DNA of 44,740 nucleotides from Halorubrum coriense DSM 10284 (GTDB lineage: Archaea > Halobacteriota > Halobacteria > Halobacteriales > Haloferacaceae), in assembly GCF_000337035.1 (NCBI RefSeq), contig NZ_AOJL01000042.1, forward strand, positions 29,820-74,559, written 5' to 3'. Position numbers and translations under genes: made by a program. Positions 11,437 through 20,367 of this stretch are shown here, piece by piece (position 1 is the first letter of the stretch; the number at the start of each line of letters is the position of its first letter). The notes below the pieces were generated by a model, which worked only from the letters and a program-made list of their open reading frames with translations, searched no databases and was not told the DNA's origin.

Positions 11437-11901
11437 TCAGTCCGCTTCGAGGTAGTCGACGACGAGGACCGGGACGTGCGTCGAGCGCAGCGTGCGCTCG
11501 GTGACGCTGCCGAGCAGCGCGCGCCGGACGCCGGCGCGACCGTGGCTCCCCATCACGATCAGGCTGACGTCGTTGTCCTCGGCGTAGTCGGCGATGACCT
11601 TGTGCGGTCGCCCGCCGGAGACGTGCTCGACGACGTCGACGCCGCGTTCGCCGCCGCGGTCGGCGACCACGCCGGTCGCCTCGTCCGCCTGCTCTTTCAG
11701 CTCCCCCATCTCGTCGAACCGACCCTGCTTGAGCCGGTCGACCTGTTCGGTTCCGAGGCTGAAGTTCACGGAGTCGATGTCGACCACGTACAGCGCGTGG
11801 ACCTCGGCGTCGTACTTCTCCGCGAGGTCGAGCGCGTGGTCGACGGCGGCCTCCGCGACGTCGCTGCCGTCAGTGGGGACGAGGATGCGGTCGTACATCA
11901 T
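11437..11901 (-). CDS. UspA-family universal stress protein
   Basis: A 154-residue single-domain Usp fold (RILVPTDGSDVAEAAVDHAL at the start). The ATP-binding signature G-x2-G-x9-G-S is complete at Gly118, Gly121, Gly131 and Ser132, so it is probably the ATP-binding type. The first ATG overlaps the symporter stop by four bases (ATGA), making it the third gene of the DUF4212-symporter-Usp operon. Usp domains commonly accompany transporters in haloarchaea and may act as cytoplasmic regulatory partners; for this pair that is inference. Confidence 0.93.
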   Translation of the reverse strand: MMYDRILVPTDGSDVAEAAVDHALDLAEKYDAEVHALYVVDIDSVNFSLGTEQVDRLKQGRFDEMGELKEQADEATGVVADRGGERGVDVVEHVSGGRPHKVIADYAEDNDVSLIVMGSHGRAGVRRALLGSVTERTLRSTHVPVLVVDYLEAD

Positions 11902-13694
11902 CGCTCCTCCGTGATTTCGTCGTCGTCCACTGCGCGGTCACCCTCGGCGGCCGCGTCGTCCACTGCGCGGTCACCCTCGGCGGCCGCGTCGTCCACTGCG
12001 CGGCCGCCGTCCGTCACCACGTCCTCGCCGCCGTCGGCGACGACGTCCTCCGCGGTCTGCTGTTGCCCCATCGGCTCGGGGCTGTGACACTGCCGGACGA
12101 TCCGCTTCGTCTCCAGCGACGGCTCGTCGGTCGCCATCGAGACGACGATGGTGACGACGAACACGACCGGGAGCGTGATGAGCGCCGAACCGATGGCGGG
12201 CATCCACGTCGCGAGGCCCGTCGACAGCGGCGCGTCGAGCGAGCCGATGTACGTCGGCACGATCTGGTTGATCATCGGGATCGACCAGAGCGTCAGCCCG
12301 GTCGTCATCCCGGCGAGCGCGCCCTGCCGGTTGGCGTTCTCCCACCACATGCCGAGGAAGAACATCGGGAACAGCACGGAGCCGGCGAGCGAGAACGCGT
12401 AGCCGACGAGCGCCGCGATGGAGGACGCGGGGTTGAGCGCTGCCAGCGTGGTCAGCGCGCCCAGTGCGACGATCGAGAGGCGGCCGACGAGGATCTGCTG
12501 GCGCTGCGTCGCGTCCTCGTTGATGATGTTCGTGTAGATGTCGTGGCTGATCGCCGACGAGCCGGCGATGAACAGCCCGGCGACCGTCGCGATGGCCGCG
12601 GCGATACCGCCCGCCGCGACGATGCCGACGAACCAGTCCGGGAGCCCGGACAGCTGCGCCGCCAGCACGACGATGACCTCGCTGGCCGCGCTCGTCATCC
12701 CGGGATCGCCGTACGTCGCGCCGACGTTCTGCGTGTAGAGGTCGGTCCCGAACGCCGCGAACGCGGGCGCGCTCCAGTAGAGGATACAGATGAAGAACAG
12801 CCCCCACACCGTCGACCAGCGGGCCGTCCGCTCGCTCTCGACGGTGTAGAACCGGACGAGCACGTGCGGGAGCCCGCAGGTACCGACGATCAGCGAGAAC
12901 GTCGTGGCGACCCAGAGGTAGTAGCTCGACCCGGCGAACGGCTCGGAGAACTCGCTGCCGAGCTGGCTGATCAGCGCGCCGTACTCCAGCTGCGGCAGCA
13001 CCGTGGAGTAGCCGTTCGTGTAGCCGACGACGAACAGCCCGACGACGAACGCCAGGATCAGGATGACGTACTGGACCGCCTGGTTCTTCGTCGCGCCCAG
13101 CATGCCGGACAGCGTCAGGTAGCCGACGGTGACGACCATCATGGCGACGACCATCACCTGATACCCGTCGAGACCGGGGACGAGGGCCCCGTAGTTACCG
13201 AAGATGTACAGCCCGACGAGCGCCATCCCCTTCGCCTGTCCGATGGCGTAGACGAAGCCGATGAGGAACGTCGTCACCGCCGCGATGGCGCGCGCGGTGT
13301 CGGAGTTGAACCGGTCGCCGACGAAGTCGGGTGCGGTGTACTTCCCGAACCGACGCAGCTGCGCGGCGAGGAAGATGAGCAGGATGAAGTAGCCGGTCGT
13401 CCAGCCGACGACGAACACGAGGCCGTAGAACCCGGCCAGCGCGATGGACGCCGCCATCCCGAGATACGACGCCGCGGACATCCAGTTCGCGCCGATCGCC
13501 ATCCCGTTCTCGACGTTCCCGATGGACCGGCCGGCGACCCACATGTCGTCGGTGTCGGCCACGCGGAAGACGAAGCCGATGGTGAGGAACAGCCCCAGCA
13601 TTCCGATCACGAGGAGCGCCGGACCGATCTTGAACGAGATGTCGAGCGCCTCCGGCAGGAGCTCGCTCTGGAGGAGCAGCGAACCCCCCGTCAT
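11898..13694 (-). CDS. Sodium:solute symporter, large subunit (acetate-permease-like, VC_2705 type)
   Basis: A 598-residue SSS-family transporter with about 13 hydrophobic helices, for example GPALLVIGMLGLFLTIGFVF, MAIGANWMSAASYLGMAAS and GIAAAIATVAGLFIAGSSAISHD. It belongs to the subgroup that pairs with a DUF4212 small subunit, encoded just upstream with a 4-base ATGA overlap. Two acetyl-CoA synthetase genes follow this region, so acetate or another small monocarboxylate is the likely substrate; that is contextual inference. The cytoplasmic C-terminal tail (last ~55 residues) is unusual. It is acidic and built from an 11-residue repeat, VDDAAAEGDRA, encoded by 33-bp DNA repeats. The stop overlaps the Usp start. 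Confidence 0.92.
   Translation of the reverse strand: MTGGSLLLQSELLPEALDISFKIGPALLVIGMLGLFLTIGFVFRVADTDDMWVAGRSIGNVENGMAIGANWMSAASYLGMAASIALAGFYGLVFVVGWTTGYFILLIFLAAQLRRFGKYTAPDFVGDRFNSDTARAIAAVTTFLIGFVYAIGQAKGMALVGLYIFGNYGALVPGLDGYQVMVVAMMVVTVGYLTLSGMLGATKNQAVQYVILILAFVVGLFVVGYTNGYSTVLPQLEYGALISQLGSEFSEPFAGSSYYLWVATTFSLIVGTCGLPHVLVRFYTVESERTARWSTVWGLFFICILYWSAPAFAAFGTDLYTQNVGATYGDPGMTSAASEVIVVLAAQLSGLPDWFVGIVAAGGIAAAIATVAGLFIAGSSAISHDIYTNIINEDATQRQQILVGRLSIVALGALTTLAALNPASSIAALVGYAFSLAGSVLFPMFFLGMWWENANRQGALAGMTTGLTLWSIPMINQIVPTYIGSLDAPLSTGLATWMPAIGSALITLPVVFVVTIVVSMATDEPSLETKRIVRQCHSPEPMGQQQTAEDVVADGGEDVVTDGGRAVDDAAAEGDRAVDDAAAEGDRAVDDDEITEER
11922..12020 (-). repeat. 33-bp tandem repeat in the symporter C-terminal tail
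   Basis: Units start at 11922, 11955 and 11988 on the plus strand, each beginning GTCGTCCACTGCGCGG. The first two are identical over 33 bases and the third diverges after about half. They keep frame and encode an acidic 11-residue peptide repeat. Related units with the same period occur at 14099-14164 in the partner gene. Confidence 0.9.
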
Positions 13695-14197
13695 TCGTCG
13701 ACCCCCCCGTCGGCCGCCGCGACGTCAGCGCCGCTCGCGGTCTCCGTGACGGTCCCGTGTTCGATCCCGTACTTCTCGTCGAGCGCGTCCCGCTTGCGCG
13801 AGTACCAGAACGCGAGGATGAGCGCGCTGGTCGGCGCGCCGAAGGCGACGAGGAAGTAGTGGAGCGGGAAGCCGAGGATCGGCATCGTCTGGGTCATCAC
13901 GCCCGGCGCGAGCCGCGTCAACGTCACGGGGCCCCACACCGCGAGCACCCAGATCGCGAACCCGGTCCAGACGATCCGGAGGTGGTCGCGCATGTACGCC
14001 GTGCTCGGATTCAGGATGTTCACTTCCGCTCCGAGGTAGTCGGTGTCCCTGTGCGTCTGTGCGGCTCCGGTGGACGCGACGCCGCCGTCGGTGGCCGCGT
14101 CGTCAGTTGCGCGTCCACCGTCGGTGACCGCGTCGTCGGTTGCGCGGTCCCCGTCGCCGGCCGCGTCGTCTCGTTCGCGCGAGGTATTCTCTGTCAT
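13691..14197 (-). CDS. DUF4212-family symporter small subunit
   Basis: A 168-residue protein. The conserved part, about residues 55-150, has NPSTAYMRDHLRIVWTGFAIW and two hydrophobic helices (WTGFAIWVLAVWGPVTL and FPLHYFLVAFGAPTSALILAF), ending in FWYSRKRDALDEKYGI. This is the accessory subunit that accompanies a subset of SSS transporters. The N-terminal 50 residues are a repeat-rich acidic extension (DRATDDAVTDGG units) absent from the core family and matching the tail of the large subunit. It is first in the operon. A GTTTATCC element 24-32 bases before the ATG is a good TATA box. Confidence 0.9.
   Translation of the reverse strand: MTENTSRERDDAAGDGDRATDDAVTDGGRATDDAATDGGVASTGAAQTHRDTDYLGAEVNILNPSTAYMRDHLRIVWTGFAIWVLAVWGPVTLTRLAPGVMTQTMPILGFPLHYFLVAFGAPTSALILAFWYSRKRDALDEKYGIEHGTVTETASGADVAAADGGVDE
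14099..14164 (-). repeat. 33-bp repeat units in the DUF4212 N-terminal tail
   Basis: Two diverged 33-bp units (14099-14131 and 14132-14164) begin GTCGTCAGTTGCGCG and GTCGTCGGTTGCGCGG; a third partial unit follows at 14165. They align in frame and period with the units in the symporter tail 2.1 kb away, and the second is about three-quarters identical to those. Confidence 0.8.
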
Positions 14198-14305: not shown

Positions 14306-16300
14306 CTACTCGGCGTCGGCCTTCCGCTGGATCTCCTCGACGATCTCGGGGTTCCGAAGCGTGCTCGTGTTCCCGAGCTCGTCGCCGTCGGCGATGTTCT
14401 CCAGCAGGCGACGCATGATCTTCCCGGACCGGGTCTTCGGCAGGTCGGGCGTGAACACGACCTGCTCCGGCCGGGCGATCGGGCCGATGGCGTCCTCGAC
14501 GCCCGCGACGATCGCGTCGCGAAGCTCGTCGGTGCCCTCGTAGTCGTCCTCGGTCGTCACGTAGGCGTACACCGCCTCGCCCTTGATGTCGTGGTCACCG
14601 CCCACGACGGCGGCCTCCGCGACCCCCTCGACGCCGACGATGGCGGACTCGATCTCCATCGTCCCCAGCCGGTGGCCGGAGACGTTGAGCACGTCGTCCA
14701 CGCGGCCGAGGACGGTGATGTAGCCGTCGTCGTCGATCTTCGCCCCGTCCTCCGGGAAGTACACCCAGTCGTCGGGGTCGTCGCTGTCGGTGTCGGAGTA
14801 CTCCGCCCAGTACTCCTCGACGTAGCGCTCGTCGTTGTTGTACAGCGTCCGGAGCATGCCGGGCCACGGCTTCTGAACCGTGAGGTAGCCGGCCTTCCCG
14901 GGCTCCACCTCCTCCCCGAGCGTGTCGAGGATCTGGACGTCGAGCCCCGGCAGCGGCGGGCCCGCCGCGCCGGGCTTCATGTCCTTGACGCCGGGGAGCG
15001 TGGTCACCATCATCCCGCCGGTCTCGGTCTGCCACCACGTGTCGACGATGGGGCACTCCTCGTCGCCGATGTGCGTGTAGTACCACTTCCAGGCGCGCGG
15101 GTTGATCGGCTCGCCGACCGTCCCGAGCAGCCGCAGCGAGGAGAGGTCGTGGCGGTCCGGGAACTCCGGTCCCCACTTCATGAACGCGCGGATCGCCGTC
15201 GGGGCCGTGTACAGCTGCGTCGCCTCGTACTCCTCGACGATCTCCCAGAGCCGGTCGCGCTCCGGGTGGTCCGGCGTCCCCTCGTACATCATCGTCGTCG
15301 TCCCGAGCGCGAGCGGGCCGTAGACGATGTACGAGTGCCCGGTGATCCAGCCGATGTCGGCCGAGCAGAAGTACGTGTCATCCGGCTCGATGTCGAGGAC
15401 CGACTGCGAGGTCCACGACACCCACGAGAGGTAGCCCCCGGTCGTGTGTTTCACCCCCTTCGGCTTCCCCGTCGTCCCCGAGGTGTACATCAGGAACAGC
15501 ATGTCCTCGGCGTCGCGGGTGACCGGCTCGACAGCCGCGCCCTCGTGTTCCGCGACGAGGTCGTCGTAGTCGACCTGGTCGTCGGCGAGGTCGTGGCCGA
15601 AGTCGTCGCCGTTCGGCCCGAGCCGGTCGACGACGACCGTCGTGGTGTCGTGGTCGACGCCCGCGAGCCCCTCGTTCGCCTTGTCGAGGTGGTCGAGCGG
15701 GTCGCCGCGGCGGTAGTAGCCGTCGCAGGTGACGAGGTACTCCGACTCCGCGGCGTTCATCCGCGTCGCAAGCGCGTCGGCCGAGAACCCGGCGAACACG
15801 ACGCTGTGGGGCGCGCCGATGCGGGCGCACGCCAGCATCGCGACCGGCAGCTCCGGGATCATCGGCATGTACATCGTGACGACGTCGTCCTCCTCGACGC
15901 CCTGCTCCCGAAGGGCGGCGGCGAACTCGTTCACCTCGCGGTGGAGTTCCTCGTAGGTGTACGAGCGGTCGTCCTCGTCGACGGGCTCGCCGACCCACTC
16001 GATCGCGACCTCGTCGCCGCGCTCGTCGAGGTGTCGGTCGAGGCAGTTCGCCGACGCGTTCAGCTCGCCGCCCGTGAACCACTCGTAGAAGGGCGGGTCG
16101 TCGTCGTCGAGCACCCGGTCGTAGTCGGTTTCCCACTCCAGCAGGTCGGCGGCCGCCTCCCAACACTCCGGCCAGTTCTCCTCGAACTCCTCGTATATCT
16201 CCGGGTCGGAGACGTTCGCCTGTTCGACGAACGACTCCGACGGCTCGAATACCTCCTGTTCCGCGAGTCTCGCTTCCAGTTGGCCGTCTCCCTCTGTCAT
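14306..16300 (-). CDS. acs: Acetyl-CoA synthetase (AMP-forming), paralogue 1
   Basis: A 664-residue enzyme that converts acetate, ATP and CoA to acetyl-CoA, AMP and PPi. All family signatures are present: the P-loop-like YTSGTTGKPKG at about 270-280, TWWQTETGG in the acyl pocket with the tryptophan that limits chain length to acetate, NVSGHRLGTMEIE in the hinge region, and SGKIMRR with the adenylation lysine Lys627, the residue usually acetylated in bacterial control. The ATG at 16300 was preferred over a GTG farther up because it follows a clear TATA box by about 28 bases. It reads in the same direction as the symporter operon downstream and the Bat-type regulator gene upstream, so acetate uptake and activation are adjacent. 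Confidence 0.96.
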   Translation of the reverse strand: MTEGDGQLEARLAEQEVFEPSESFVEQANVSDPEIYEEFEENWPECWEAAADLLEWETDYDRVLDDDDPPFYEWFTGGELNASANCLDRHLDERGDEVAIEWVGEPVDEDDRSYTYEELHREVNEFAAALREQGVEEDDVVTMYMPMIPELPVAMLACARIGAPHSVVFAGFSADALATRMNAAESEYLVTCDGYYRRGDPLDHLDKANEGLAGVDHDTTTVVVDRLGPNGDDFGHDLADDQVDYDDLVAEHEGAAVEPVTRDAEDMLFLMYTSGTTGKPKGVKHTTGGYLSWVSWTSQSVLDIEPDDTYFCSADIGWITGHSYIVYGPLALGTTTMMYEGTPDHPERDRLWEIVEEYEATQLYTAPTAIRAFMKWGPEFPDRHDLSSLRLLGTVGEPINPRAWKWYYTHIGDEECPIVDTWWQTETGGMMVTTLPGVKDMKPGAAGPPLPGLDVQILDTLGEEVEPGKAGYLTVQKPWPGMLRTLYNNDERYVEEYWAEYSDTDSDDPDDWVYFPEDGAKIDDDGYITVLGRVDDVLNVSGHRLGTMEIESAIVGVEGVAEAAVVGGDHDIKGEAVYAYVTTEDDYEGTDELRDAIVAGVEDAIGPIARPEQVVFTPDLPKTRSGKIMRRLLENIADGDELGNTSTLRNPEIVEEIQRKADAE

Positions 16301-16327
16301 GGTACGGTCGTATCCAACCAATATCAC

Positions 16328-16346
16328 CATATAAACGCTAACGCTA
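16328..16346 (-). promoter_or_regulatory. acs promoter with TATA box and ACGCTA direct repeat
   Basis: Minus-strand GTTTATATG at 16328-16336 lies 28-36 bases before the acs ATG. Immediately upstream, plus-strand ACGCTA is present twice in tandem (16335-16340, 16341-16346). This is where BRE and activator sites sit in archaeal promoters. The whole region is the 75-base gap after the Bat-type regulator gene. Confidence 0.55.
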
Positions 16347-16375
16347 ATTACGAAAAACCGTGATAGATACCCCGG

Positions 16376-18139
16376 TCAGCGCGTCGCCTCCGACGAGTCG
16401 GCGTCGGCGGCCCCGGCGTCGCCGCGGATCGACCGCCCCGCGTCGTCCTCGAAGACTCCGTCGAGGAGCGCGCGCTGGGCCTTCCGGAGGTGGTTGTGGA
16501 ACGTCGGCGACGAGACGCCCATCGCGTCGGCCACCTCCTCGGCCGTGCTCCCGCGCGGCCAGTCGAAGTAGCCGCCGTGGTACGCCGCCGACAGCGCGGC
16601 CCACTGGCGGTCGGTGAACCGGTCGGCGACGCCCTCCCGCAGCGACGACTCCGTGCGGGGCGAGCGGGCGACCGACTCCTTGCTCGCGAGTCGCACGTCG
16701 GCGAACCGATCGCGGAGGCCGTCGGCCACGGGTCGGACGTTCGTCCCCTCGGGGAAGTCCGCGACCACGCGGACCCGGCCGTCGGCGGCCGACGCGTCGC
16801 GCACGGTCGCGCCGTGGTCGATCAGCGCCCTGACGAGCGAGCCGCCGTCGAGGCGGAGCGACGCCGAGCAGCCGTCCTCGCGGGTCTCTATGACGCGGAA
16901 GTCGGACGCACCCGTCGCCGAGGTGACCGTCGACGCGAAGTCCTGCGGGCGAGCGCCGTCGACGGAGAGGTACGCGCGGGAGGCGTCGTCGTCGACTTCG
17001 ACGGTCGACGCCAGCTCGATCCGGCAGTCCAGCCGGTCGCTCGCGCGGGCGAGGAACGCCCCGTCGTCGCTCGTCCGGAACTCCACTTCGGTCACCGCGT
17101 CGGAGTGGAGTAGCTCCCGCCACCGGTCCGCGGTGATCGCCCTCCCGAGACACCGCCCGAGCGCCGCGAGCGCCCGCCGCTCCGCCGGCTCGACCGGGTC
17201 GCCGTCGGCCGCGACGACGCAGAGCGAGCCGTGGATCACGCCCTCGTAGGCCGCCGGCACCGCGACCGCCGGCCGGCCGTCGGTCTCCCGTCGACCGTCG
17301 GTCTCGGCGGGTGCGCCGTCGGCTATCGCCTCCAGCCACGGCCCACCTGCCGTCACCCCACGGTCCGCGAGCGACGCCGGATCGACGCCCGCCGCCGCGG
17401 TCACGTCGGCCCGCTCGCCGCCGACCGCCCGGCGAACGAGCCACGCCTCCGCCCACCGGTCGGCCTCGATCAGTCCCGCGGCGACGGCCGCGGGAGGCTC
17501 CGCTCCCGCGGGGTCACCGAGCGCCTCGAATCCCGGCAGGACCGTCATCTCGGCCCGCTCCGCCGGCTGGTCGTCAGACGCCTCGTCCCCGGCGAACGCG
17601 GCCGCGAGCGCCTCCCCGTCGAGCGGTTCGAGGTACGGGTCCAGCGTGCCGAGCGACTCCCAGCCGCCCGCGTCGCGGACCGCTCGGGGATCGACGTCGC
17701 GGTCGACGAGCTGCCGCCTGGCGAACGTCTTCCGCAGGGCGCTCGGCGTGACCCGCCCGTCGGGCGCGGCGTCGGTGAGGCTCGACGCCCGCGCCGCGGT
17801 CTCGCTCACGATCATCTGGACGCGACGAGGGGAGACGCCGACGTACGGCTCGTCGTCGTCGAGTCCCTCGCTCGTCGCGTACCGGTCGAGGTCGGCCGCC
17901 AGCGACGCCGGTACTGCGGTCTCCCTATCGACGTCCCCCTCGCCGTCGACGGCCGGGACCGCGAGGAGACGCGCGCCGGCGACCGATTCGGGTTCCCGCA
18001 GGTGTCGCGGAGCGACGCGGGTTATCTCCTCGGTGCGAAGCCCGGCCTCGCCGGCCAGCCTGACGACGAGCGCCGCGCGATACGTCTCCGCGGCGGTGAC
18101 GAGCGCGTCGTACGCGTCCGCGTCGAGGCCGTCGACCAT
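16376..18139 (-). CDS. Bat-type transcriptional regulator fused to a tyrosine-recombinase-like domain
   Basis: A 587-residue multidomain protein. Residues 10-180 look like the catalytic half of a tyrosine recombinase: GLR35TEE (box I), then Ser133-x2-Arg136, Trp160 and Tyr169. The spacings (3, 24 and 9) match the canonical H-x2-R...[H/W]...Y box II, but the first histidine is Ser and the beta-hairpin lysine is not visible. A GAF-like domain follows (about 210-345), then a Bat domain (about 350-515), and finally the HTH_10 DNA-binding domain (FTDRQWAALSAAY...PTFHNHLRKAQRALLD). Bat proteins activate haloarchaeal genes in response to redox or light. It sits between two acs genes on the same strand, so it is a candidate local regulator of acetate use. 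The ATG at 18139 has a TATA-like AGTTATCT 29-36 bases upstream. Confidence 0.88.
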   Translation of the reverse strand: MVDGLDADAYDALVTAAETYRAALVVRLAGEAGLRTEEITRVAPRHLREPESVAGARLLAVPAVDGEGDVDRETAVPASLAADLDRYATSEGLDDDEPYVGVSPRRVQMIVSETAARASSLTDAAPDGRVTPSALRKTFARRQLVDRDVDPRAVRDAGGWESLGTLDPYLEPLDGEALAAAFAGDEASDDQPAERAEMTVLPGFEALGDPAGAEPPAAVAAGLIEADRWAEAWLVRRAVGGERADVTAAAGVDPASLADRGVTAGGPWLEAIADGAPAETDGRRETDGRPAVAVPAAYEGVIHGSLCVVAADGDPVEPAERRALAALGRCLGRAITADRWRELLHSDAVTEVEFRTSDDGAFLARASDRLDCRIELASTVEVDDDASRAYLSVDGARPQDFASTVTSATGASDFRVIETREDGCSASLRLDGGSLVRALIDHGATVRDASAADGRVRVVADFPEGTNVRPVADGLRDRFADVRLASKESVARSPRTESSLREGVADRFTDRQWAALSAAYHGGYFDWPRGSTAEEVADAMGVSSPTFHNHLRKAQRALLDGVFEDDAGRSIRGDAGAADADSSEATR

Positions 18140-18167
18140 CCGTTTCGGAATCCAACAGTCAGCCGAA

Positions 18168-18175: not shown

Positions 18176-18381
18176 GTTCCGGACGTTCGCTTCTCCGTTC
18201 CGAGAGCTACCGCGTCGCCGCGATTCTCTCCTGTTCGCGGCGGAATCCCGGTAGGTATGTTTCGCATCTGCGGTCGCGTCCGAAACGGTCGTCGTCGACC
18301 GCCGCGACGGCCGAGCATCGCCCGTGTTCAGAGGCGGAACCAGGTCGCGAGAGGGCGACCGTCCGCGCGACCGGAGCGCGC

Positions 18382-20343
18382 CTACAGCTGAGCGCCGTCG
18401 TCTCTGACGGTCGACTCGATCTCGCCCACCACCTCGGGGTTCCGGAGCGCGCTCACGTCGCCGAACTCCTCGCCGCGGGCGATGTCCTCCAGCAGCCGGC
18501 GCATGATCTTCCCCGAGCGCGTCTTCGGGAGCTCCGGCGTGAACACGATCCGGCCGGGGCGCGCCACGTCGCCGACGGCGCTCGTCAGCCGGTCCGCGAT
18601 GGCGTCGCGGAGCGCCTCGTCCGGCTCGACGACGCTCTTCGTCGTCACGTACGCGACGATGCGCCCGTCGTCGTCCCCGACGACGGCGGCCTCGGTCACG
18701 CCGTCGGCGTCGACGATGGCCGCCTCCAACTCCGCGGTGTTGAACCGCTGGGCCCGGACGTTGATCACGTCGTCGACGCGGCCGAGGATCGTGACGTAGC
18801 CGTCCTCGTCGACGGTCGCGCCGTCGCCGGTCCGGTAGCGCCACCCGTCCTCCCCCCTGAGCCAGTACTCCCGGAGGTAGCGCTCGTCGCCCTCGCGGAG
18901 CCCGCGGAGCATCCCTGGCCACGGGGAGCCCAGCGTGAGGTACCCCGACTCGCCCGGGTCGACCGGCTCGCCCTCCTCGTCGACGACGCGGGCGTCGATC
19001 CCCGGTAGCGGCGGGCCGACCTTCCCCGGCTTCATCGGGGTGATCCCGGGGAGCGTGGCGAGCGCGATGGCCCCGGTCTCGGTCTGCCACCACGTGTCGA
19101 CGACGGGCGCGTCCCCGCCGCCGACGTGGTCGCGGTACCAGCGCCACGCCTTCGGCGTGATCGACTCGCCGACCGTCCCGAGCAGGCGGATCGACGAGAG
19201 GTCGTGCGACTCGGGGTACTCCGCGCCCCACTTCATGAACGAGCGGATCGCCGTCGGCGAGGTGTAGAAGACGCTCACCGCGTTGCGCTCGATCAGGTCC
19301 CAGACGCGGTCGCGGTCCGGGTAGTCGGGTGACCCCTCGTACAGCACGGTGGTCGTCCCGGTGGCGAGCGGGCCGTACACGCCGTAGGAGTGGCCGGTGA
19401 TCCAGCCGATGTCGGCGGCGCACCAGTAGGTGTCGTCGGGGCGCACGTCCAAGACCTTCCGCGTCGTCCACGCGACGTGCGCGAGGTAGCCGCCCGTCGC
19501 GTGCTCGACGCCCTTCGGCCGCCCGGTCGTGCCCGAGGTGTACATCACGAACAGCAGGTCCGTCGCGTCGCGGGCGACGGGCTCGACCGTCTCCCCGTCG
19601 TGCGCGTCGACGAGCGCGTCGTACTCGTGCTCGTCGTCGCCGAGCGAGACGGCCAGCTCGTCGCCGAGGCGGTCGACGACGACCGCGGCTGACAGCTCCT
19701 GTTCGGCGCGGATCCGGGCGTTGTCGGCCTTCGACTTCTGATTGAACGCGTCCTCGCGGCGGTAGTAGCCGTCGCAGGTGATCAGGTACTCGGAGTCGGC
19801 CGCGTCGATCCGGGTCGCGAGCGCCTCAGCGGACAGCCCCGCGAAGACGACGTTGTGCGGCGCGCCGATGCGGGCGCACGCCAGCATCGCGATCGGCAGC
19901 TCCGGGACCATCGGCAGGTACAGCGTGACCACGTCGTCCTCCTCGACGCCGAGGTCGCGCAGCCCCGCCGCGAGCGCGTTCACCTCGCGGTGGAGGTCGA
20001 GATAGGTGTACGACCGGCGCTCTCCCCGCTTCCCGAACCACCGGATCGCGAGCTGGTTCCGCCGGTCGTCGAGGTGGCGGTCGACGCAGTTCGCCGCGGC
20101 GTTGAGCCGCCCGCCCGTGAACCACTCGTAGAAGGGCGGCTCGGAGTCGTCGAGGACGGCGTCGTACTCGCGGTCCCACGTCAGGAGGTCGGCCGCCGCG
20201 CGCCACGCCGCCGGCCCCTCGCGGTCGAACCGCTCGTACACCGCGGAGTCGCTCGCGGCGGCGCGCTCCCGAAAGTCGGCCGGCGGCGGCACGACGTCCC
20301 CGTCGCCGTCGACGGTCCGACCGCGGTTCCCGGAGTCGTCCAT
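18382..20343 (-). CDS. acs: Acyl-/acetyl-CoA synthetase (AMP-forming), diverged paralogue 2
   Basis: A 653-residue Acs-family enzyme, clearly homologous to the paralogue 2 kb downstream along its whole length. YTSGTTGRPKG, TWWQTETGA, GWITGHSY and SGKIMRR (Lys612) are kept. The hinge segment differs: where true Acs has NVSGHRLGTMEIE, this one reads NVRAQRFNTAELE, and the residues after TWWQTETG change from GMMVTT to AIALAT. It could be an acetate isozyme or could favour propionate or another short acid; sequence alone does not decide. The ATG at 20343 follows a TATA-like element by about 25-32 bases. The gene is 242 bases upstream of the Bat-type regulator. Confidence 0.88.
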   Translation of the reverse strand: MDDSGNRGRTVDGDGDVVPPPADFRERAAASDSAVYERFDREGPAAWRAAADLLTWDREYDAVLDDSEPPFYEWFTGGRLNAAANCVDRHLDDRRNQLAIRWFGKRGERRSYTYLDLHREVNALAAGLRDLGVEEDDVVTLYLPMVPELPIAMLACARIGAPHNVVFAGLSAEALATRIDAADSEYLITCDGYYRREDAFNQKSKADNARIRAEQELSAAVVVDRLGDELAVSLGDDEHEYDALVDAHDGETVEPVARDATDLLFVMYTSGTTGRPKGVEHATGGYLAHVAWTTRKVLDVRPDDTYWCAADIGWITGHSYGVYGPLATGTTTVLYEGSPDYPDRDRVWDLIERNAVSVFYTSPTAIRSFMKWGAEYPESHDLSSIRLLGTVGESITPKAWRWYRDHVGGGDAPVVDTWWQTETGAIALATLPGITPMKPGKVGPPLPGIDARVVDEEGEPVDPGESGYLTLGSPWPGMLRGLREGDERYLREYWLRGEDGWRYRTGDGATVDEDGYVTILGRVDDVINVRAQRFNTAELEAAIVDADGVTEAAVVGDDDGRIVAYVTTKSVVEPDEALRDAIADRLTSAVGDVARPGRIVFTPELPKTRSGKIMRRLLEDIARGEEFGDVSALRNPEVVGEIESTVRDDGAQL

Positions 20344-20367
20344 GGCATCCAATGGCCGGCGCAGAAA

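Follow-up and report, generated by a model that had tools for sequence, protein, structure and literature searches.

Halorubrum coriense DSM 10284 carries a gene whose product joins a tyrosine-recombinase fold to a Bat-type sensor and a C-terminal HTH_10 domain. This raises the question whether such a protein, here called int-Bat, still breaks DNA or has put the recombinase fold to another use, and which genes it serves. We analysed a window of 44,740 nucleotides around this gene. The explanation that we favour overall, at a probability of roughly 0.6, is that int-Bat is a dedicated regulator of an acetate operon with a domesticated, catalytically dead recombinase domain that would be used for DNA binding; the DNA binding, the ligand and the direction of regulation are what we infer. 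The gene and its domains lie as follows.

16376–18139, minus strand: int-Bat coding sequence, 587 aa plus stop codon, with the order recombinase fold, GAF-like, BAT, HTH_10
17588–18139, minus strand: N-terminal tyrosine-recombinase catalytic-fold domain (N-domain), aa 1–184, with a degenerate active site (Pfam, phmmer, AlphaFold2, alignment)
17105–17494, minus strand: GAF-like domain, about aa 216–345 (structural match to GAF chains; marginal in Pfam)
16637–17101, minus strand: BAT domain, aa 347–501 (Pfam PF15915, 6e-41)
16463–16618, minus strand: HTH_10 DNA-binding domain, aa 508–559 (Pfam PF04967, 1.2e-19; dN/dS 0.02)

Pfam recognised a Phage_integrase domain at residues 5–172 (E = 5e-7, 30.1 bits against a cut-off of 27.1), and phmmer matched int-Bat to the archaeal recombinase XerA (4a8e, 2.4e-7). 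Modelled alone with AlphaFold2 from 66 sequences (pLDDT 92.9, pTM 0.90), the N-domain had XerA 5hxy as its best PDB match (3.6e-6, TM 0.66–0.68), followed by Cre, XerH and lambda Int. A full-length model from 22 sequences (mean pLDDT 81, about 90 over most of the N-domain) had XerA, Cre and GAF chains among its best PDB matches. The N-domain thus possesses the catalytic-domain fold of tyrosine recombinases. As in Bat-type regulators, HTH_10 adjoins the BAT domain at the C-terminus, and a GAF sensor is present that is marginal by sequence (GAF_2, 0.22) and matched by GAF structures in the model; in another member of the family, L121, PAS and GAF both exceed the Pfam cut-off. These results bear out the original prediction of a recombinase fold joined to Bat and HTH_10, including the positions that it gave for R35, S133-x2-R136, W160 and Y169, the Ser in place of the box II His and the missing hairpin Lys.

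The architecture as such is already catalogued. With Phage_integrase, BAT and HTH_10 in a single protein, int-Bat belongs by domain make-up to fam30-04 of the archaeal tyrosine recombinases, larger proteins of identical architecture of which some also contain GAF_2 (Badel et al. 2021, PMC8371274). What the family description in that source gives for fam30-04 is the domain make-up; unlike the present analysis, this part neither analyses the active site nor names an operon, DNA sites or a function.

With XerA and Cre, int-Bat shares the catalytic-domain fold and the positions of R35, E38, R136 and W160, but it has no N-terminal core-binding domain, lacks the Lys, the His and often the Tyr, and is fused to a regulator. 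The closest homologues of the N-domain that we found (E = 1e-30 to 1e-64) are site-specific integrases of about 200 aa from haloarchaeal plasmids (e.g. NC_001869, Halobacterium NRC-34001), which differ from int-Bat in being stand-alone and in having a complete active site and variable recognition-helix residues. The standalone homologues collected here, mostly of about 200 aa, resemble such annotated plasmid integrases. Those designated L139–L152 are of this plasmid type: their active sites are complete and they lack a core-binding domain. In some species several of them occur per genome.

We aligned 154 distinct int-Bat N-domains together with 19 standalone homologues. The latter kept R, K, H, R and W in 19/19 sequences and an aligned Tyr in 17, the Tyr of the other two (L156, L157) being apparently one column off. 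The catalytic set R-K-H-R-H/W-Y is incomplete in int-Bat: the Lys is absent, the His is replaced by Ser and the Tyr is not conserved among the relatives. The hairpin Lys has gone from the whole family (a Lys lies in the hairpin stretch of 7/154 members, always within a long variable insert), the box II His persists in only 6/154, and the Tyr occurs in 108/154, replaced in the other 46 by F, H, L and others; species of the same genus have Phe or His at the position of Tyr169. The least decayed members (L031, L071–L073, L077, L242) keep R, H, R and Tyr and have no hairpin Lys. R136 is found in 153/154, R35 in 140/154 and W160 in 144/154 (Y or F in the remainder), so that of the four residues named in the original prediction as a conserved signature three are conserved and Y169 is not. 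Its further suggestion that the retained Tyr might hint at residual DNA cleavage does not stand: such cleavage is unlikely because Lys and box II His were lost family-wide and the Tyr was replaced in 46/154 members, congeners included. Judged from these residues, int-Bat is almost certainly catalytically dead.

The N-domain is nevertheless under purifying selection, with a dN/dS of 0.22 compared to 0.45 for the linker that follows it; HTH_10 is the most constrained part of the protein. E38, R105 and R106 are invariant in all 154 N-domains, and M109 (153/154) and R72 (152/154) nearly so, while the standalone homologues have an Arg equivalent to position 106 in 1/19 and a Met equivalent to position 109 in none. 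The most conserved stretch, V[ST]xRR[VLI]QM, is presumably the DNA-reading helix of the fold (helix J of Cre), as taken from its position relative to box II; this assignment is structure-inferred, and the phmmer placement differs from it by eight residues. The frozen residues E38, R72, R105, R106, M109 and R136 look DNA-facing, and a reading helix that is frozen in int-Bat and variable in active homologues fits a single frozen DNA site. In a midpoint-rooted FastTree tree comprising int-Bat (n = 77) and standalone domains (n = 20), without other recombinase families, the two groups split cleanly with a support of 1.0. That the int-Bat domains form a single clade, distinct from the active relatives sampled, agrees with the earlier proposal that a recombinase fold was domesticated into a Bat/HTH_10 regulator. 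Retention of a recombinase domain for non-catalytic use is known from Crypton-derived vertebrate proteins and other domesticated recombinases. The Crypton-derived proteins differ from int-Bat in being eukaryotic and in having unrelated partners.

Which genes int-Bat may serve is suggested by its neighbours, none of which, like the minus strand, figured in the original prediction.

18382–20352, minus strand: acs2, second acetyl-CoA synthetase paralogue, upstream of int-Bat (Pfam; synteny)
14306–16330, minus strand: acs1, acetyl-CoA synthetase (Pfam ACAS_N, AMP-binding)
13691–14197, minus strand: DUF4212 protein (PF13937, 3e-20)
11898–13694, minus strand: SSF sodium:solute symporter, ActP-type acetate transporter (PF00474, 2e-54; synteny)
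11437–11901, minus strand: universal stress protein, Usp (PF00582, 8.5e-38)

The order acs2-intBat-acs1-DUF4212-SSF-Usp is the usual one among 56 loci under about ten family labels, all but one of these loci lying outside the close species group. An acetyl-CoA synthetase (ACS) gene is adjacent and co-directional to int-Bat in 54 of them, and SSF, Usp and DUF4212 genes are nearby in 49, 44 and 40, respectively. At the two loci without a called adjacent ACS, tblastn placed an ACS1 match 306 and 86 bp downstream. The same operon accompanies int-Bat with an INT-PAS-GAF-BAT-HTH_10 architecture in 10/10 loci checked. An apparent absence of the N-domain in one family was rejected as an alignment artefact, as a PAS domain is inserted there. 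The proteins of one set of families (L120–L129) are about 150 aa longer; in L121, the one that was scanned, PAS lies between the recombinase fold and GAF. In this set the acs1 element reads TACACCTAG or similar; sensor and site have possibly changed together. At G219:C15:49477-50016, an int-Bat N-domain lies in a 245-aa open frame and the locus still has the acs1 element, perhaps the remains of an int-Bat gene that was disrupted or split.

A profile of the N-domain matched 242/292 haloarchaeal genomes, standalone integrases included, and a search for full-length int-Bat listed at least about 115 matches, the PAS-containing form not counted. Several tallies, those of profile and full-length matches and of the acs1 element across genomes, were made by eye, and the counts overstate independence because the genomes are related.

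The annotation of a Haloferax lucentense plasmid shows the same operon order. In H. volcanii, acs7-HVO_A0155-ssf-uspA28 form one transcript seen only on acetate, and acs8 is HVO_A0158 (PMC7746861). HVO_A0157 is therefore the presumptive int-Bat orthologue of this species, as judged by its locus number and by the gene order in H. lucentense. HVO_0895, located between H. volcanii acs1 and acs2, was considered as the orthologue and dropped, since acs7 and acs8 flank the operon genes. A literature search on HVO_0895, HVO_A0157 and acetate with opsin activator returned nothing relevant. Taken from gene order and cis elements, int-Bat is very probably a regulator of the acetate operon acs1-DUF4212-ssf-usp.

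Three conserved cis elements accompany the operon, and they too are new relative to the original prediction.

16332–16356, minus strand: conserved element upstream of acs1, TTNNNNTANYTAG-N8-YTTA, running into the TATA box (conservation across loci)
18144–18167, unstranded: dyad O1, TTCG-N16-CGAA, ending 4 bp before the int-Bat start codon (motif search, conservation)
18261–18284, unstranded: dyad O2, same motif as O1, its centre 117 bp upstream of that of O1, i.e. 11.1 helical turns (motif search, conservation)

Upstream of acs1, the pattern TT-N4-[TC]A-N-[TC]TAG-N8-[TC]TTA, ending in the TATA box, was found in 67/70 loci by a search that imposed the TAG and TTTA anchors, a preference for a spacing of 8 and a mild preference for ATAA; the two TT columns, conserved in 64/67 each, were not imposed. 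A slightly looser pattern occurred in 71/76 loci of a second, partly overlapping set and in 61/1600 random windows. The strict pattern has one exact match in the 3.65-Mb genome, at acs1. It is present in 104/292 genomes, by eye mostly just downstream of int-Bat, and matches elsewhere were no more frequent than those of a reversed-pattern control. As the acs1 ATG called at 16330 overlaps the TATA box (region 16298–16335), translation more likely starts from the ATG at 16300 (codon 11), which would render the transcript nearly leaderless.

Dyads O1 and O2 flank the int-Bat promoter. O1 (TTCG-N15/16-CGAA, ending a few bases upstream of the start of int-Bat) was present in 82/94 loci compared to a shuffled mean of 0.16, and a second copy, mostly 100–176 bp upstream, in 76/83; a second set of loci gave 74/79 for O1 and 72/79 for O2. 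Summed over 66 loci, two promoter bins of 100 bp held 34 and 38 dyads against a background of 0.47 per bin, and the motif was nearly absent elsewhere in the 10-kb span except for a bin of 8 near +400. The extended form TTTCG-N16-CGAAA exists at four places only in the genome, of which O1 and O2 are two; the others, G000:C5:90954-90979 and G000:C26:2619-2644, are candidate further targets. The distances between O1 and O2 cluster at 77, 96–98, 107, 117 and 128 bp and are helically phased (R = 0.69 at 10.5 bp, best period 10.4; R = 0.72 in the second set), also when unique distances are used (R = 0.49, jitter p about 2e-4). Such same-face spacing suggests that the two sites act together. Their consistent place before int-Bat and their rarity in the genome make autoregulation the simplest reason for the dyads, and int-Bat probably regulates itself at O1 and O2.

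In the mechanism that we propose, an ancestor related to the small single-domain plasmid integrases of haloarchaea would have been fused to a GAF-BAT-HTH_10 regulator, with catalysis lost and the DNA-contacting residues of the recombinase domain kept and frozen. The GAF region, or PAS-GAF in some families, would sense a signal of carbon or acetate status, and HTH_10 would recognise the YTAG-type element that lies one helical turn before the TATA box of acs1 and would activate transcription. Dimers would bind O1 and O2, probably via the recombinase domain, and hold both on one helix face; int-Bat would control itself cooperatively or by a loop, like a recombinase synapse without cleavage. Two DNA motifs that differ in sequence and symmetry fit two DNA-binding domains, and we see even odds that the recombinase domain is the one that binds the dyads. 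A dead recombinase domain with two matching, helically phased sites before its own gene may be a DNA clamp or loop-maker. Looping between O1 and O2 is a tentative proposal, the reading nearest to recombinase behaviour; the plainer alternative is cooperative binding of the ordinary kind. Rather doubtful is the specific version that reuses synapsis, the bridging of two core-like sites by two recombinase dimers, without cleavage to form a regulatory loop around the regulator's own promoter. Several observations speak against the proposed mechanism: O1 and O2 could be bound by HTH_10 or another regulator, helical phasing arises with ordinary cooperative repressors too, genes of active standalone homologues have no systematic dyad (3/20 have one within 600 bp upstream), and among the 8 complete Bat paralogues of this genome there is one with a dyad close to an in-frame ATG.

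The recombinase domain might instead be a pure protein–protein module for dimerisation or scaffolding, with HTH_10 reading both the acs1 element and the dyads. The extreme constraint on HTH_10 (dN/dS 0.02) is consistent with this, as are Bat-type proteins without a recombinase domain, which are known regulators of promoters (PMC1447603). We consider it unlikely, as most invariant N-domain residues are basic and occupy positions where this fold contacts DNA (R72, R105, R106, R136), dyads and acs1 element are unrelated in sequence, which suits two DNA-binding domains, and the majority of the 8 complete paralogues of Bat that we checked have no dyad. Quite unlikely is a scenario in which a different transcription factor uses the dyads as operators and acs1 is all that int-Bat controls. 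Sites of the TTCG/CGAA dyad type are generic, and position is the sole direct link between the dyads and int-Bat; against this, across families roughly nine in ten loci have them before int-Bat, and the extended dyad is as rare as described above.

It is improbable that acs genes simply have an unusual core-promoter signature (BRE/TATA) in the acs1 element, which would then not be an activator site. The element lies directly against the TATA box with a constant spacing of 8 bp, as such a signature might, but it is longer and more specific than a BRE and unique in the genome, and the Bat-controlled bop promoter also has an upstream activating sequence (UAS) 5′ of the gene (PMC1447603). Int-Bat resembles Bat, the bacterio-opsin activator of Halobacterium, and DmsR-type HTH_10 regulators, which combine a GAF/PAS sensor with a C-terminal HTH, are encoded beside their targets and have a UAS 5′ of the regulated gene; int-Bat differs from them in the recombinase domain before the sensor, the linked acetate genes and the two dyads before its own gene. 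That the domain still breaks DNA (nicking, topoisomerase activity or rare O1–O2 recombination), the dyads serving as recombination sites for deletion or inversion of the int-Bat promoter, is highly improbable despite the two similar flanking dyads, the R35, R136, W160 and Y169 of the H. coriense copy and the six relatives with R, H, R and Y, since the hairpin Lys is lost family-wide, the His in 148/154 and the Tyr in 46/154 including congeners, and the dyads persist in genomes where the Tyr is replaced.

The favoured reading, a regulator with a disarmed recombinase domain, links a recombinase family that, in the family description mentioned above, was only catalogued to an operon, to candidate DNA sites and to a probable function. 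A matched set of intact homologues shows that the enzyme was disarmed, and haloarchaeal acetate metabolism gains a candidate regulator. If the dead recombinase does bridge the phased dyads, int-Bat would be a direct test case for the conversion of a recombinase synapse into a gene-control loop.
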